From a bacterium (GTDB lineage: Bacteria > Planctomycetota > UBA11346): a stretch of 7,842 nt of DNA. Under the pieces are notes generated by a model, which saw only the letters and a list, made by a program, of their open reading frames with translations, did no database searches and was not told the DNA's origin. Below, one piece after another: positions 1,614 to 7,155 of this stretch (the stretch's first letter is position 1; every line of letters starts with the position of its first letter). The stretch spans positions 1 through 7,842 of the forward strand of contig JAIFKN010000300.1 in NCBI GenBank assembly GCA_020049615.1, in the 5' to 3' direction. The translations under genes were made by a program, and so were the position numbers.

Positions 1614-3608
1614 TCACCCGCCGAGCAGCAGCCGGCCGGGCGCGCCGTCGCGGACGAAGGCGTCCAGTCCGGCGGGCATCTCGCCGCCGGCGCGCACCCG
1701 GGCATGCGCCGCCTGCAGCAGGTCGAGGTCGCGAGCCAGGTCGGTGGCGAACAGGCGGAAGCCGCCGTGCTGGCGCAGGCCGAGCAGCTCGCCCGGACCG
1801 CGTTCGGCGAGGTCCGCCTCGCTGATCGCCAAGCCGTCGGGCTCGGCGCTGAGCGGTGCCAGCCGGGTCGCGTCGCCGCGGCTCAGCAGCAGGCAGCGGC
1901 CTGGAGCGGTGCCGCGCCCGACCCGGCCGCGCAGCTGGTGCAGGCTGGCGAGGCCGAAGCGCTGCGCATCGAGCACCACTGCCAACGTCGCCTCGGGCAC
2001 ATCGACGCCGACCTCGACCACGGAGGTGGCGACGAGGCAGCGCGCCCTGCCCTCGGCGAAGGCGGCGAGCGCCGCCAGCTTGTCTGCCTCGCGCATCGCG
2101 CCGGTGAGCACGGCGACGGACGCGTCGCCCAGCGCGGTCCGCGCCGCCACCGCCGCCTCGTCCACGGAGAGGGGGGCCTCGTCCTCGTCGCCCTCGATGC
2201 GCGGGCAGACGACGAAGCTGCGGCCCGGCTCGGCGGCCAGCACGCGACCGAGCGCCGCCCAGCCGGCGAAGGGCTCGATCGCGGTGGTGGCGGCGGTCCG
2301 CCCCGGTGGCCGGCCGTGGATGCGGGTCACGGCCAGATCGCCGTAGGCGGTCAGTGCCAGCGTGCGCGGGATCGGCGTCGCCGTGGTCAGCAGCAGGTCG
2401 GCACGCGTGCCAGGCGGCGTTTTCGCCACCAGGGCGGCGCGCTGCGCGGTGCCGAAGCGGTGCTGCTCGTCGATCACCGCCAGGCCGAGGCGGGCGAAGA
2501 CGACCTCGGGCTCGAGCAGCGCGTGCGTGCCGATGAGCAGGTGCAGGCCGCCGTCCGCGGCCTCGGCGAGCAGCCGGGCGCGCTCGTCGCGCAGCGTGCC
2601 GCCGGTGAGCAGGCCGACGCGCACGCGGCTGTCCGCGAGCACACGCTGGGCGAAGCGCGCGTGCTGCGCCGCCAGCACCGCGGTCGGCGCCAGCCAGGCG
2701 GCCTGCGCCCCGTCGGCGATGACCGCCAGCGAGGCGGCCAGCGCGAGCGCGGTCTTGCCGCTGCCGACGTCGCCGGCGAGCAGCCGGGCGTCGGCGGCGC
2801 CGCCGCGCAGTCCGGCGCGGATCTCGGACAGGGCCGCCTCCTGGCCCGGGGTCAGGGCGAAGGGCAGTCGGGCGAGGACGCGGGCGTGGATGCCGTCGTC
2901 CCAGCGCCACGGCGCGCGGACGCTGTCGGCGCCGCGCCGATGGCGCAGGTGCCAGGCCAGAGCCAGGCACTCGCGCGCCGCCACGGTGCGCCGCGCCGCC
3001 TCCCAGGTCGAGGCGTCGCACGGCCGGTGCAGGTCGCGTAGCACCGCCCGCCACGCCGATGGCTCGAGTTCGCCGAGCGGATCGGCGAGATCGTCGCGGC
3101 CCAGGCAGGCGTCGAGCAACTGGCTCCAGGCCTTGTCGGCGAAGCCCTCGGGCATGGCCCAGGCGAGGCGCAGGCCGGCGTCGGTAGCGCGCGGCGTCTG
3201 CGCGCCCTGCGGGCAGTGGGCGAAGGACGGGTGGTTGAGCAGGTCGGCCCGCTTGCCGTCGGTGCGGCCGTCGCAGTCGAACCACTCGCCGGGGACGAAG
3301 CGGCGCTGCAGGAAGGCGGCGCGGAAGAAGCGGGCGGCGAACTCGTGGCCGTCGGCACGCGCCAGCTTGACGTTCAGCAGCTTGCCGCGCCCTGGCAGGA
3401 AGCCGGTCTTCGCCTGCAGCACGCGGCCGCGCACCCGGGTCGACGCACCGCGCGGCAGCGGACCGTCGTCGCACCACGGCGGTGGCGGCGGCAGCAGGCG
3501 CGGGGCGCGCAGCAGCACATCCTGCGGCGTGCGGAAGCCCGCTGCCGCCAGGGCGGCGGCGCGGGCCGGACCGATGCCGGGGACGTCCGACCAGCTATTT
3601 CCGGGCAT
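1614..3608 (-). CDS. recG: ATP-dependent DNA helicase RecG
   Basis: 664 residues; family members are usually about 690. RecG remodels stalled replication forks and branched DNA. An N-terminal helix-hairpin-helix-like stretch (8-38, V-P-G-I-G-P-A-R) precedes the OB-fold wedge (about 55-120, ending in F-V-P-G-E-W-F-D-C-D-G). The helicase core follows: Walker A G-D-V-G-S-G-K-T (279-286), A-P-T-A-V-L-A-A-Q-H (Ia), D-E-Q-H-R-F-G (380-386), T-A-T-P-I-P-R-T-L-A-L-T (409-420), V-A-T-S-V-V-E-V-G-V-D-V-P (526-538) and Q-L-R-G-R-V-G-R-G (558-566). The C-terminal L-G-L-R-Q-H-G corresponds to the family's L-G-x-R-Q-S-G. All catalytic motifs are present; in motif Ia the usual Glu is Ala, a mild deviation. 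The start ATG lies 14 nt inside the FlhX-like gene with no obvious Shine-Dalgarno, so translation is probably coupled. Its stop abuts the inverted repeat. Confidence 0.96.
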   Translation of the reverse strand: MPGNSWSDVPGIGPARAAALAAAGFRTPQDVLLRAPRLLPPPPPWCDDGPLPRGASTRVRGRVLQAKTGFLPGRGKLLNVKLARADGHEFAARFFRAAFLQRRFVPGEWFDCDGRTDGKRADLLNHPSFAHCPQGAQTPRATDAGLRLAWAMPEGFADKAWSQLLDACLGRDDLADPLGELEPSAWRAVLRDLHRPCDASTWEAARRTVAARECLALAWHLRHRRGADSVRAPWRWDDGIHARVLARLPFALTPGQEAALSEIRAGLRGGAADARLLAGDVGSGKTALALAASLAVIADGAQAAWLAPTAVLAAQHARFAQRVLADSRVRVGLLTGGTLRDERARLLAEAADGGLHLLIGTHALLEPEVVFARLGLAVIDEQHRFGTAQRAALVAKTPPGTRADLLLTTATPIPRTLALTAYGDLAVTRIHGRPPGRTAATTAIEPFAGWAALGRVLAAEPGRSFVVCPRIEGDEDEAPLSVDEAAVAARTALGDASVAVLTGAMREADKLAALAAFAEGRARCLVATSVVEVGVDVPEATLAVVLDAQRFGLASLHQLRGRVGRGTAPGRCLLLSRGDATRLAPLSAEPDGLAISEADLAERGPGELLGLRQHGGFRLFATDLARDLDLLQAAHARVRAGGEMPAGLDAFVRDGAPGRLLLGG

Positions 3609-3867
3609 TCACGCGGTAGACATGCGCCAGCACCTCGGCCAGCGCCTTGTACATGTGCGGCGGGATCTCGACGTCGAGGTCGAGGACCATGAGCAGGCGC
3701 AGCAGGTCCTTGTCCTCGTGCAGCGGGATGCCGTGCTCGGCGGCGATGGCGAGGATGCGCTCGGCCACCTCGCCGTGGCCCTTGGCCACGATCTTCGGGG
3801 CCGCGTCGCTCTCGGCGTCGTAGCGCATGGCCACGGCGGCCGGTCGGGGTGGCGCGCGTTCAGTCAT
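3595..3867 (-). CDS. stand-alone FlhB cytoplasmic-domain protein, FlhX/YlqH-like
   Basis: 90 residues. After a short basic lead it reads A-V-A-M-R-Y-D ... A-A-P-K-I-V-A-K-G-H-G-E-V-A-E-R-I (11-38), then A-A-E-H-G-I-P-L-H-E-D-K-D-L-L-R-L-L (42-59) and E-I-P-P-H-M-Y-K-A-L-A-E-V-L-A-H-V-Y (67-84). This is the part of FlhB/YscU-type export switch proteins downstream of their self-cleavage site. There is no TM region and no N-P-T-H cleavage motif. Known relatives are FlhX of Helicobacter (a spare FlhB C-terminal domain) and YlqH of Bacillus. A role in the flagellar export gate, contacted by FliK, is inferred from family and neighbours. Its start overlaps the fliK stop in an 8-nt ATGACTGA, and its 3' end overlaps recG by 14 nt, so all three are probably translationally coupled. 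Confidence 0.88.
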   Translation of the reverse strand: MTERAPPRPAAVAMRYDAESDAAPKIVAKGHGEVAERILAIAAEHGIPLHEDKDLLRLLMVLDLDVEIPPHMYKALAEVLAHVYRVNARK

Positions 3868-5098
3868 CGGCGGCGATCCTCACCGCCGCGTCGAGGCCGA
3901 GGCTGCGCAGGTCGGAGACCAGCGCCGGCAGCTCGTCGGCCAGCGCGGCCCCGGAGCGCCGGCTGGCGATCAGGGTGATGGCGAGCGGTCCGCCGCTGTC
4001 GGCGCCGCTCAGCCGGATGCTGACCGGGCCCAGGCGGGTGAGTTCGGCATCCACCCGGACGAACGTTGCTTGCGAGCCGCCTCCCGTGCTGCGCGAGGCC
4101 ACCGCCAGCCGGGCTGGCGTGGTCACCTGGGCGGCGCTCAGCGGCAGCGCCACCACGCGGTCGTAATCGGCGAGATCCTTCGGCTTGAACACCTGCTCGG
4201 CGAGGTGTTCGCGCACCGTGCGGGTGACGGTCTCGTCCAGCGCGGTGGGTGGTGGTTGAGCGGGGGCCGGAGCGGCTGTGTCGCTGGGCGGCGGAAGCAC
4301 TGTCGCACGTGGTGGTGGCTGGGTGGCGGCCGGTGCTGGCGCCGCGTTCGGCAGGGCTGGCCGCTGGGGCGGATCCTTCGCCGCCTCCGGCGCGGTCGAC
4401 GTTCGAGCCTCGCCATGCGCGGGCATCTCCGGCTCGCTAACTAGGCGTACGATCTGGCGGATCAGGCTGGGCCGGAGGGGGGCGACCGGTTCAGCACGGG
4501 GCGTCGCTGCCGGTGCCGGCCTGGGAGCGACGAGCTCCGGCTCGTCGCCAGGCGCGGGGCTTGTGCTGCCTGTTGGCCCGGCGTTCGCCGTGGGGGGTCG
4601 CTGGTTGCTGGCCGCCGGCTGCTGGCCGCGAAGTTCCGGGGTTGTCGCTCCCACATCGGCGCCAGGCATGGCCGATGGAGCGGAAGGCGCAGGCCGTGGC
4701 ACTGGCGGTGCCTGCGACGAACCGGAGCTCGTCGCTCGCAGGCTGGTCGCCGGAAGGGGTGACTGGCTAAGAGACCGTGGCACCTGCGACGAGCTGGAGC
4801 TCGTCGCTCCCAGGCTGGTTGCCGTTGCGGTGGGAGGCCGTGGCGCCTGCACCGGGCTGGAGCTCGCCGCTCCCAGGTGTGCCGGATCGGCTGACAGCTG
4901 TCTCGCCACCGGCGGCCCGGTCGGCGGAGCGGCCCTGGGAGCGACGGGCTCCGGCTCGTCGCCGGCGATCGGAGCGGGAGCTGCGGGTGCCATCGCCGGC
5001 CGCGGCTCGACGCGGGCTGAAGCCCGCGGTCCTGCAGGCAGGTCGGTAGCTGTCGCGGCTGATGTGGCGGCAGCCGGCCCAGGACCGCGGGCTTCAGC
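3860..5098 (-). CDS. fliK: flagellar hook-length control protein FliK/YlqG-like, C-terminal part (linker and hook domain)
   Basis: About 412 residues from the F2 element to the TGA at 3862-3860; the first in-frame ATG is at 4993. The first two thirds is a disordered Ala/Pro/Ser/Thr linker containing palindrome-derived peptides (L-G-A-T-S-S-S-S-S-Q and G-D-E-P-E-L-V-A-P-R types). The last ~122 residues (4228-3863) form the folded FliK C-terminal (Flg_hook) domain: V-A-L-P-L ... A-T-F-V-R-V-D-A-E-L-T-R-L-G-P-V-S-I-R-L, then L-A-D-E-L-P-A-L-V-S-D-L-R-S-L-G-L. This domain signals hook completion to the FlhB export switch. The frame is open further upstream to 5476, but there it is Arg/Cys/Trp-rich shadow sequence. 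I read this as the 3' half of one gene whose 5' half is in another frame (5978-5094). Whether a full protein is made is unknown. Confidence 0.75.
   Translation of the reverse strand, partial: AEARGPGPAAATSAATATDLPAGPRASARVEPRPAMAPAAPAPIAGDEPEPVAPRAAPPTGPPVARQLSADPAHLGAASSSPVQAPRPPTATATSLGATSSSSSQVPRSLSQSPLPATSLRATSSGSSQAPPVPRPAPSAPSAMPGADVGATTPELRGQQPAASNQRPPTANAGPTGSTSPAPGDEPELVAPRPAPAATPRAEPVAPLRPSLIRQIVRLVSEPEMPAHGEARTSTAPEAAKDPPQRPALPNAAPAPAATQPPPRATVLPPPSDTAAPAPAQPPPTALDETVTRTVREHLAEQVFKPKDLADYDRVVALPLSAAQVTTPARLAVASRSTGGGSQATFVRVDAELTRLGPVSIRLSGADSGGPLAITLIASRRSGAALADELPALVSDLRSLGLDAAVRIAADD
4520..4552 (+). repeat. palindromic element E, copy 1
   Basis: A 33-bp unit with exact arms GCGACGAGC (4527-4535) and GCTCGTCGC (4540-4548) around TCCG, bordered by CCTGG and CCAGG. 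On the coding (minus) strand it encodes P-G-D-E-P-E-L-V-A-P-R. It has the same orientation as copy 5. Confidence 0.8.
4628..4653 (-). repeat. possible degenerate E element
   Basis: The minus strand reads TGGGAGCGAC, identical to the first part of the E unit, then diverges but ends in CTTCGC where E has CTCGTCGC. It encodes V-G-A-T-T-P-E-L-R, comparable with L-G-A-T-S-S-S-S-S. This is probably an old, decayed copy in the orientation of copies 2-4. Confidence 0.4.
4711..4742 (-). repeat. palindromic element E, copy 2
   Basis: A 32-bp unit in the opposite orientation to copy 1. The core arms are GCGACGA (4714-4720) and TCGTCGC (4729-4735). It encodes L-R-A-T-S-S-G-S-S-Q. A CCGTGGC precedes it at 4694-4700; the same heptamer precedes copies 3 and 4. 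Confidence 0.75.
4783..4814 (-). repeat. palindromic element E, copy 3 (most perfect)
   Basis: A 32-bp unit whose arms GCGACGAGCT (4786-4795) and AGCTCGTCGC (4798-4807) are exact 10-bp reverse complements around GG. It encodes L-G-A-T-S-S-S-S-S-Q. It lies 72 nt from copy 2 and 63 nt from copy 4, both multiples of three. Confidence 0.85.
4846..4877 (-). repeat. palindromic element E, copy 4
   Basis: A 32-bp unit matching copy 3 at 28 of 32 positions. The changes (for example GA to AC in the left arm) weaken the palindrome. It encodes L-G-A-A-S-S-S-P-V-Q. A CCGTGGC at 4838-4844 precedes it, as for copies 2 and 3, so copies 2-4 may partly be a local tandem duplication. Confidence 0.75.
4934..4965 (+). 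repeat. palindromic element E, copy 5
   Basis: A 32-bp unit in the orientation of copy 1, differing from it by A to G in the left arm (GCGACGGGC) and loss of one A near the end. It encodes G-D-E-P-E-P-V-A-P-R. It lies 414 nt from copy 1, a multiple of three. Confidence 0.8.
5004..5033 (-). repeat. palindromic element F, copy 1
   Basis: CGCGGGCT (5011-5018) and AGCCCGCG (5021-5028) are exact arms around GA, flanked by GGCTCGA and GTCCT. Its orientation is opposite to copies 2 and 3. On the coding strand it reads through as G-P-R-A-S-A-R-V-E. Confidence 0.8.
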
Positions 5099-5105
5099 GT
5101 GCTTC
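5081..5105 (+). repeat. palindromic element F, copy 2 (degenerate, carries the fliK stop)
   Basis: Its first 18 bp (AGGACCGCGGGCTTCAGC, 5081-5098) are identical to copy 3, but the second arm is broken (GTGCTTCC instead of CCGCG...). On the coding strand its core contains GCTGAAGC. In the upstream fliK frame this is read CGC TGA (stop 5096-5094), and in the downstream frame GCT GAA. Confidence 0.7.
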
Positions 5106-5978
5106 CACAGGTGGCTCAGTGTGTGTCGCGACCGCTGGCAGGGGGCGAGGACCGCGGGCTTCAGCCCGCGTCGAAGCCCCACCCGCCACCTCCGGCGTCG
5201 CTGAGGGCAGGATTTTCGCCACCGGCGCAGCGGCATCATCCGGCGCTTCCGGTCCCGGATGCACGCCCGCGAGGGCGAAGATGCGGCGTATGGCGGGGGC
5301 ACCCTCGTCAGCGTCGGGCAACGCAATCGGCAGGACGGCGCGCGGTTCGGTGCGGGTGGCCGGTACCGGATCGCCACCTCGCGCTGTCTCTGCCCGCGCT
5401 GCCGTCGGTCGCGTCCCGCCCATCTCGGCGGCGACATCGGGCAGACGGTTCTCGCTCGCGCGCAGGGCGACACCAAGCAGCGCCGGAGTCGCCGGCAGCC
5501 CGGCGCGGGCGAGCAGGGCGTGGGCCTGGGCGGTCTTCGGCGGTGCCGTGGGCAGCGCGGCGGCGCGCACCGCGGCCTGCAAGCGCAGCGGATCGAGCGG
5601 GGCGCCGGCCTCCTCGAAGGCGGCGAGCACCGCGGCGGCGGCCGGTCCCGGCGGTAGGTTTAGCGCGGCCTGGCGCTGCGGTGCTGCGCTGATCGTGGTG
5701 GTGACCGGCTCGGCCAGGCGCAGCACCACGCCGTCGGGCGAAGCCTGCGCGACGTTCAGCCGCACCTGCGTGCCTGGCTTCAGTTCGGCCTCGCTGCTGG
5801 CGACGAATTCCAGGGCGACGAGGAAACGGCCAGCCGCGAGCGCACGCAAAACCGTCACATCGATCGTCGTGCCGGCCAGCAGCTGCGGCGCCGAGGCTGC
5901 GGTCGGCGTCGCAGCGGGTGTCGTGGTCGGCGATACGCCAGGCGTCGGCGCCGCTCCGCCCGCGCTGACCGGCTCCAT
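5094..5978 (-). CDS. fliK: FliK/YlqG-like hook-length control protein, N-terminal part ending at an F element
   Basis: 294 residues. The ATG at 5978 sits 2 nt after the fliA stop, implying coupled translation. Residues about 33-95 (L-L-A-G-T-T-I-D-V-T-V-L ... G-R-F-L-V-A-L-E-F, then L-K-P-G-T-Q-V-R-L-N-V ... V-V-L-R-L) form a beta-rich module typical of the N-terminus of YlqG-like FliK proteins, followed by an Ala-rich helical part. The frame stops at TGA 5096-5094, which lies inside palindrome F2 and is contributed by it. Without the C-terminal hook domain this fragment alone could not act as a length-control switch. The protein-like character persists right up to the stop (P-L-P-A-V-A-T-H-T-E-P-P-V-E-A), so the frame change lies at or very near F2. 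Causes could be a real mutation, a repeat-driven rearrangement or an assembly error. Confidence 0.75.
   Translation of the reverse strand: MEPVSAGGAAPTPGVSPTTTPAATPTAASAPQLLAGTTIDVTVLRALAAGRFLVALEFVASSEAELKPGTQVRLNVAQASPDGVVLRLAEPVTTTISAAPQRQAALNLPPGPAAAAVLAAFEEAGAPLDPLRLQAAVRAAALPTAPPKTAQAHALLARAGLPATPALLGVALRASENRLPDVAAEMGGTRPTAARAETARGGDPVPATRTEPRAVLPIALPDADEGAPAIRRIFALAGVHPGPEAPDDAAAPVAKILPSATPEVAGGASTRAEARGPRPLPAVATHTEPPVEAR
5148..5178 (+). repeat. palindromic element F, copy 3
   Basis: A complete F unit with arms CGCGGGCT (5153-5160, in GACCGCGGGCT) and AGCCCGCG (5163-5170), followed by TCGAAGCC. In the upstream fliK frame it is read A-S-T-R-A-E-A-R-G-P, the same codon phase (GCT GAA GCC) as copy 2 in the downstream frame. 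Confidence 0.8.
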
Positions 5979-5980
5979 GA

Positions 5981-6757
5981 CTAGAGGACCAGCGCCGATC
6001 CGAAGCGGGCCTTGAGCACGCCCATGACCCGGCTGTGGATCTGGCAGATGCGGCTCTCGGTGACGCCGAGGATGGCCGCGATCTCCTTCATCATCAGGTT
6101 TTCGAAGTAGTAGAGCTTGAGGATCAGGCGTTCCTGCTCGGACAGCGTCGCCAGCATCCGCGTCAGCATGCGCCGGCGGTCGTCGGCCTCCATGTGCCGG
6201 CCCGGATCGGCCATCTCGTCGTCGCGCCGGGTCAGTCCGTCGCCGAGCGCGCCGTCCTCGCCCAGCGGCGTGTCGAGCGAGACCTGCGAGGCGAGGGTGC
6301 TCTGCGACTCCAGCTCGGGCAGCAGGCAGACGTCGATGCCCAGGCGGGTGGCGAGTTCGTCGTCCTTGGGCAGGCGGCCGAGGGACTGGCTGAGCTCGGC
6401 GACGGCCTTCTGGTAGGCGCGGGCGCGCTCGCGGGCGCCGCGCGGTACCCAGTCGCGGGCGCGCAGTTCGTCGATCACCGCGCCGCGGATGCGCAGCACG
6501 GCGTAGGTCGAGAAGGCGTTGTCGCGTCCGGGATCGAACTTGGTCAGGGCGTCGATCAGGCCGATGACGCCGGCGTGGAACAGGTCGTCGCGGTCGACGT
6601 GCGGCGGCAGATGGGCGGCGATGCGGTCGACCACGGTCTGGACCAGCGGCAGGTGGCGCAGGACGTCGGCCTCGTGCGCGCCGCCAGGCCCGGCGGCGGC
6701 CTGCCGGTAGGCGGCGGTCGGACCACGGCGCTGCGATGAGGAGGCGGCCTCGGCCAT
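5981..6757 (-). CDS. fliA: RNA polymerase sigma factor FliA (sigma-28 / WhiG family)
   Basis: 258 residues, normal for the family, which directs transcription of late flagellar genes. Region 2 spans about 32-103: L-P-L-V-Q-T-V-V-D-R-I, D-L-F-H-A-G-V-I-G-L-I-D-A-L, K-F-D-P ... F-S-T-Y-A-V-L-R-I-R-G-A-V-I-D-E-L-R. The diagnostic FliA/WhiG segment R-D-W-V-P-R-G-A-R follows (101-109). Region 3 is about 110-160. Region 4 (204-252) carries L-S-E-Q-E-R-L-I-L-K-L-Y-Y-F-E-N-L and the helix-turn-helix K-E-I-A-A-I-L-G-V-T-E-S-R-I-C-Q-I-H-S. A ~28-residue Ala/Gly-rich N-terminal extension precedes region 2. The ATG is 3 nt after the stop of the small membrane protein and its own stop is 2 nt before fliK, so it sits in a coupled operon. 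No anti-sigma FlgM is visible here, and I saw no sigma-28-type promoter in the window. Confidence 0.95.
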   Translation of the reverse strand: MAEAASSSQRRGPTAAYRQAAAGPGGAHEADVLRHLPLVQTVVDRIAAHLPPHVDRDDLFHAGVIGLIDALTKFDPGRDNAFSTYAVLRIRGAVIDELRARDWVPRGARERARAYQKAVAELSQSLGRLPKDDELATRLGIDVCLLPELESQSTLASQVSLDTPLGEDGALGDGLTRRDDEMADPGRHMEADDRRRMLTRMLATLSEQERLILKLYYFENLMMKEIAAILGVTESRICQIHSRVMGVLKARFGSALVL

Positions 6758-7123: not shown

Positions 7124-7155
7124 GAGGCTTGAGGCTTGAGGCTTGAGGCTTGAGG
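7124..7155. repeat. heptanucleotide tandem repeat GAGGCTT, 4.6 copies
   Basis: Four exact GAGGCTT units (7124-7151) are followed by GAGG. The array lies in the 156-nt gap between leuS and the flagellar cluster, 19 nt upstream of the candidate -35 in minus-strand transcription. CTCAAGCCT at 7204-7212 is a perfect reverse complement of array sequence and could pair with it. Seven is not a multiple of three, and the array is best read as non-coding. Confidence 0.9.

Follow-up and report, generated by a model that had tools for sequence, protein, structure and literature searches.

In Rickettsia, a variety of genes are known to contain palindromic elements called RPEs. The length of FliK, a protein of the bacterial flagellum, is thought to set the length of the hook. 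According to the parts of PMC3733652 on which we draw, the RPEs stay in frame inside genes, REPs also occur within genes in several species, in clusters coding for 43-82 residues among others, and REP families are reported from Planctomycetes too. In the same source, the intragenic GTAG/CGTC REPs are found singly, as dimers or in clusters, and flexible linkers are proposed as sites where they can be tolerated. We searched its main text for the words flagell, fliK and hook, and none of them matched.

The window, i.e. the whole stretch of 7,842 nucleotides which we analysed, carries on its minus strand the end of leuS, a small DUF4229-like gene, a gene for a FliA/WhiG-type sigma factor, fliK, a FlhB C-terminal-like gene and a gene for a RecG-like helicase:

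1614..3608, minus strand: RecG-like helicase (context; profile match)
3595..3867, minus strand: FlhB C-terminal-like protein (context; PF01312)
3860..5978, minus strand: fliK, hook-length ruler; N-terminal and C-terminal regions conserved, separated by a Pro/Ala-rich linker
5981..6757, minus strand: FliA/WhiG-type sigma factor (context; matches to Sigma70 r2, r3 and r4)

Pfam and NCBIfam searches with the fliK product gave no match, and we named the gene because of its place between the FliA-type sigma gene and the FlhB C-terminal-like gene and because of its relatives; the C-terminal 131 residues are conserved among FliK relatives which, together with the gene order, supports the FliK identity. 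Two repeats of the window outside fliK were noticed by eye: an inverted repeat CACACGGAGGAACGGAGG / CCTCCGTTCCTCCGTGTGAG at 1524-1620, between two convergent genes, which is terminator-like or a repeat of another kind, and tandem heptamers CTTGAGG at 7126-7155, between the end of leuS and the next gene.

The palindromes belong to two families, and all the copies of both which the window holds sit in fliK:

4520..4551, plus strand: family I copy 1; head CCTGGGAGCG, stem ACGAGC/GCTCGT; peptide PGDEPELVAPR
4628..4653, minus strand: probable decayed family I copy (reading by eye and weak inverted match)
4711..4742, minus strand: family I copy 2; peptide LRATSSGSSQ
4783..4814, minus strand: family I copy 3; peptide LGATSSSSSQ
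4846..4877, minus strand: family I copy 4, decayed; peptide LGAASSSPVQ; misses the 3-mismatch threshold
4934..4965, plus strand: family I copy 5; peptide GDEPEPVAPR; the sister genome (see below) has a decayed copy at that place, 26/32 identical
5007..5034, minus strand: family II copy 1, AGGACCGCGGGCTTCAGCCCGCGTC; 28/28 identical to the sister
5080..5105, plus strand: family II copy 2, right arm broken; 23/28 columns identical to the sister, 2 bases shorter
5147..5174, plus strand: family II copy 3; 27/28 identical to the sister

A preliminary description of this DNA had reported five copies of a palindromic element in fliK, and all five places exist. With at most 3 mismatches, the consensus GGAGCGACGAGCTCCRGCTCGTCGC has four matches in the whole window, all of them within fliK, at 4524 (plus strand, 0 mismatches), 4714 (minus, 2), 4786 (minus, 0) and 4938 (plus, 1), against none in 200 dinucleotide shuffles. 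The remaining copy, at 4846, forms a 34-nt inverted repeat with the copy at 4934 at 79% identity and matches the copy at 4520 over 25 nt at 88%. The additional decayed copy suggested at 4628 can be called probable only: at 4628-4653 the TGGGAGCGAC head is retained, but the stem is broken. Copies 1 and 5 are on the plus strand and copies 2-4 on the minus strand. The latter three have a common flank, as the preliminary description had pointed out in favour of a local duplication, and they follow each other in tandem at distances of 72 and 63, each divisible by 3, which supports this idea for the three of them. The second family, AGGACCGCGGGCTTCAGCCCGCGTC, was absent from that description; its three copies within fliK (mean in shuffles 0.01) are, like those of family I, present in both orientations.

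With a stem of 9 and a loop of 4, copies 1 and 3 of family I are short imperfect GC-rich palindromes with a short loop, as REPs are. The canonical GT[AG]G tetranucleotide is absent from the foot of the hairpins: family I has CTGG or CCGG followed by GAGCG, and family II mostly CAGGACC. For this reason we speak of REP-type palindromes instead of canonical REPs. The spacing of the copies of the window is unlike that of a REPIN, which is an inverted pair with a spacer.

A search with the sigma factor returned four loci, one of which is close (98% identity); it lies on contig JALHRW010000258.1 of a Planctomycetota MAG, hereafter the sister genome (G001). There fliK is spread over two contigs, and the larger one has an open frame of 548 aa, without stops, which runs through the palindromes. 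In the window the gene spans two frames (5978-5094 and 5476-3860) and is thus frameshifted with respect to the sister; the break falls at family II copy 2, the copy which is 2 bases shorter, and either arose recently or reflects a misassembly at a hairpin. When the two genes are aligned (344 of the 698 columns of the linkers are identical), the three family II copies are found at the same places, and the decayed family I copy corresponds in position to copy 5. No ACGAGC form exists within 2 mismatches on the larger fliK contig of the sister, and hence copies 1-3 of the window have no counterpart there. At the position of copy 4, the alignment places half of a complete inverted pair (REPIN) of the sister, a pair which belongs to a different stem subfamily. 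The comparison of orthologues which the preliminary description had proposed thus shows shared, decayed and absent copies. Neither a target-site duplication nor a clean empty site could be shown between these two linkers, which are too diverged for this. The linker of the sister holds a third class of repeats, heptamers of the GCTGGCC type read as QQPATSG (locus L025, about 2630-2780). A FliK query gave 64 matches against the sister genome and most of those among the matches listed fall on the heptamer-repeat part; such heptamers are present on many contigs of that genome and sometimes adjoin family II copies (C79, C84, C119, C168).

Our genome-wide counts come from the sister genome; of the window's own species only the present stretch was compared. 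Family II has 85 matches in the sister, 43 of them exact, against 0 for the reversed control, and none in three other genomes of the genus (one genome positive out of four). The head-and-loop pattern of family I has 46 matches in the sister and 4 in another genome, G002, the reversed pattern having 0. The exact ACGAGC stem shows no excess in the sister (26 matches at 3 mismatches versus 33 for the control, and 1 match at 2 mismatches); it is the CCGCAC stem which sits there on the family I head instead. The ACGAGC form is also rare in the class: with 2 mismatches allowed, 23 genomes yielded 4 matches, which come from 2 of these genomes, and viral contigs yielded 0. From one subfamily to another the stem varies with its pairing kept (ACGAGC, CCGCAC, CGGGCG, CCGGCG). 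G002 has on the family I head an inverted pair, one half with the ACGAGC stem of the window and the other with ATGAGC, 3 bases after what looks by eye like a stop codon. In the sister, then, family II and the CCGCAC form of family I are dispersed, and the exact ACGAGC stem does not rise above its control.

We scored the location of the copies in the sister over 518,027 merged bases around the matches, 90% of which were called coding by a home-made codon model. For family I, 42 of the 46 places were scored (two on C146, together with C17:24896 and C148:11324, were left out): 37 fall outside called genes and 1 overlaps such a gene; of the remaining four, 2 are in fliK and 2 within another called gene. 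For family II, where four palindromic double matches were counted once, the 81 merged places divide into 43 outside genes, 20 overlapping a gene end, 15 inside genes (several of them near the predicted start or end) and 3 in fliK. The calls for both families are to be read with the fact that the gene caller under-calls low-complexity coding sequence, the fliK linker itself being scored non-coding. The gaps with copies are short: 75 copies are bounded on both sides and all their gaps but one are of at most 350 bp. The genes on either side of these extragenic copies are convergent or co-oriented for 34 of 35 copies of family I and for 38 of 40 of family II, so divergent pairs are rare around them (1/35 and 2/40). 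Inverted pairs picked from the match lists number 13 for family I and 15 for family II, including the pair inside fliK. These figures fit the earlier suggestion of a REP-type palindrome, normally intergenic, that has entered a gene.

Five ORFs of the sister with family II copies inside were scanned for domains. By positions worked out by hand, four of them have domain matches spanning or flanking the copy: a P-type ATPase, in which the copies form a pair, a cardiolipin-synthase-like protein, whose scores fall short of the NCBIfam cut-offs, a YfbK-like VWA protein and an NAD-dependent epimerase. The sole domain of the fifth (C168) is beyond the copy, which may not be in-gene. At 15 of the 20 gene ends overlapped by family II, the called gene stops at a TGA within the palindrome (offset -12); this resembles the stop codons provided by the ends of GTAG REPs, as far as PMC3733652 describes them.

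The preliminary description had also proposed to look for a RAYT transposase, and two proteins of the sister genome pass the NCBIfam RAYT cut-off (NF047646, 98.3 and 90.3 bits for a cut-off of 80). Both genes are bounded by inverted palindromes headed by GGAGCG, which overlap the ends of the called ORFs; GGAGCG is common to these palindromes and to family I, while the stems differ. In the nine Y1_Tnp loci of the genus which were scanned, we found no full palindrome of family I or II and only short core matches with one mismatch; the home-made hairpin scan applied to these loci is insensitive, as it also missed the palindromes beside the RAYT genes of the sister. Judging from relatives, families I and II were likely moved by a RAYT. 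At locus L171 (138-854), the frame of a RAYT gene itself takes in the bounding palindromes at both ends (APDAGEGAGAP).

We turned to FliK-like proteins, 18 of which were collected by two protein searches, each scoring its best 7995 candidates by shared words. With at most 2 mismatches, peptides of the families are present in three of them, P0001 and P0002 (family II) and P0005 (both families), while shuffled versions of these three give 0.02-0.03 peptide matches per protein. P0005 carries LGATSSSSSQ twice, PSDEPELVAPR and GPRASARA (shuffled expectation 0.03). As its C-terminal region has 96 of 131 residues identical to the window, compared with 123 of 131 for the sister, the copies of P0005, known from the protein alone, are probably independent insertions. 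A looser scan of the FliK proteins of 11 other genomes of the class found one 7-of-10 match to family I (G011) and no further match to either family. The tree built on the C-terminal 131 residues, with 11 rows (P0010-P0013 and G004, in which the C-terminus was not found by its motif, are not among them), is mostly unresolved, and we give no count of insertion events. In the proteins P0003 and P0004, the linker repeats a peptide like PAPAELELGGPRAG, which may stem from another palindrome.

Two general statements on FliK were considered and dropped. That FliK genes are rich in palindromes does not hold for the 13 genes compared by their hairpin counts (11 other genomes, the window and the sister), only G019 having beaten its shuffles (2 versus a maximum of 1). 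Nor do the lengths compared support a lengthening of FliK by its palindromes: P0001, P0002 and P0005 have 684, 709 and 726 aa, which overlaps with the lengths of peptide-free proteins (P0003 667, P0004 674, P0006 at most 741, P0008 733, and the distant P0014 920 and P0015 597; the comparison left out P0007, short with its 409 aa, and the other eight proteins).

Taken together, these results make it very probable that REP-type palindromes of two families have repeatedly colonised the linker of FliK and read through it in frame. The units would be non-autonomous mobile palindromes of REP/REPIN type, which a RAYT-type HUH transposase, working on single-stranded hairpins, would once have moved; several of them would have landed in the stretch of fliK which encodes a disordered linker. 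An in-frame insertion would add about 10 residues each time. The consensus of family I can be translated without stop in 6 of 6 frames and that of family II in 5 of 6, so that such insertions can presumably be tolerated. One family I copy would then have spread by local tandem duplication in multiples of 3, giving copies 2-4 in an order of events which we infer, and older copies would decay by ordinary mutation, as copy 5 compared with the sister suggests.

Tandem duplication at the level of the peptide, in a linker repetitive anyway, with palindromes as a mere by-product of codon bias, would account for copies 2-4, which are in tandem, in register and in frame, and for these only. Family I copies of opposite orientation match up to 94% over 33 nt as DNA and yet are read as unrelated peptides (PGDEPELVAPR and LGATSSSSSQ); codon duplication cannot give this, and therefore DNA was inserted. 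Since palindromes of the same kinds also occur between genes in the sister, peptide duplication is refuted as a full account, and we grant it hardly any likelihood. Chance palindromes in a coding sequence of 70% GC are likewise refuted and deserve practically no credit: the number of hairpins is indeed no higher than expected (3 in the fliK of the window, against a mean of 1.6 and a maximum of 4 in codon shuffles), but it is the repetition of the sequence, rather than the hairpin count, which exceeds chance, in the shuffles of the window as in the controls of the sister genome.

The palindromes could also be kept for a function in fliK, as mRNA hairpins which slow translation or protect the message, or as binding sites for a protein on DNA. 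The fliK mRNA folds between 4500 and 5200 far below its shuffles (z -5.9; none of the 20 shuffles is as stable), but any set of inverted repeats yields such a fold. Family II copies 1 and 3 are nearly unchanged with respect to the sister, against 31/41 and 28/41 identical positions in the stretches between the family II copies; this excess is modest, as 24 of 430 windows of 24 columns outside the REPs are also fully identical, and gene conversion or recency would explain it as well. Moreover, one family II copy (copy 2) is broken, one of family I (copy 5) has diverged, and 15 of the 18 FliK-like proteins do without the peptides of either family. We thus hold a retained function to be distinctly unlikely. 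A fliK decaying in this lineage and merely collecting repeats, to which the broken frame of the window could point, seems to us more doubtful still: the frame of the sister is open through the same copies (in a gene split over two contigs), dN/dS between window and sister is 0.094 over the C-terminal 131 codons, and P0001, P0002 and P0005 run in full from the start to the C-terminal region, peptides included.

Repeated colonisation of the linker by REP-type palindromes has a more speculative extension. The FliK linker might act as a lasting reservoir: mobile palindromes, their local duplications and heptamer repeats would come and go in it and offer length variation to selection on hook length. 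If this were true, a mobile element would be tuning a molecular ruler. We consider this unlikely, and the protein lengths compared show no lengthening. What the data offer is one disordered linker in which REP-type palindromes are present in five related FliK sequences (the window, the sister, P0001, P0002 and P0005), from two families and more than one stem subfamily. Such a natural series lends itself to asking whether insertions affect a structure that can be measured, and in what way mobile DNA is accommodated by disordered linkers.

How does this locus compare with the systems already described? Following what PMC2817692, PMC3116915 and PMC6006769 say of REPs, REPINs and RAYTs in the parts used here, the palindromes of the sister genome are like them in being GC-rich and dispersed with a constant 5' head, in lying mainly between convergent or co-oriented genes, in forming inverted pairs and in the presence of RAYT genes bounded by inverted copies. 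They are unlike them in their heads, CTGG or CCGG in family I and CAGG in family II, where those described in PMC2817692 and PMC6006769 have GT[AG]G; besides, no RAYT was found bounded by families I or II, and the copies of the window are coding. In contrast to RPEs, family I lies largely between genes in the sister, fliK being among its few coding places. Intragenic REPs are already known (PMC3733652), and what is new, as far as the literature searched shows, is the repeated colonisation of FliK by several families. Many host genes of the intragenic GTAG/CGTC REPs serve replication and repair, according to the same source as far as it is used here, whereas in our case two families occupy one linker in several related species.
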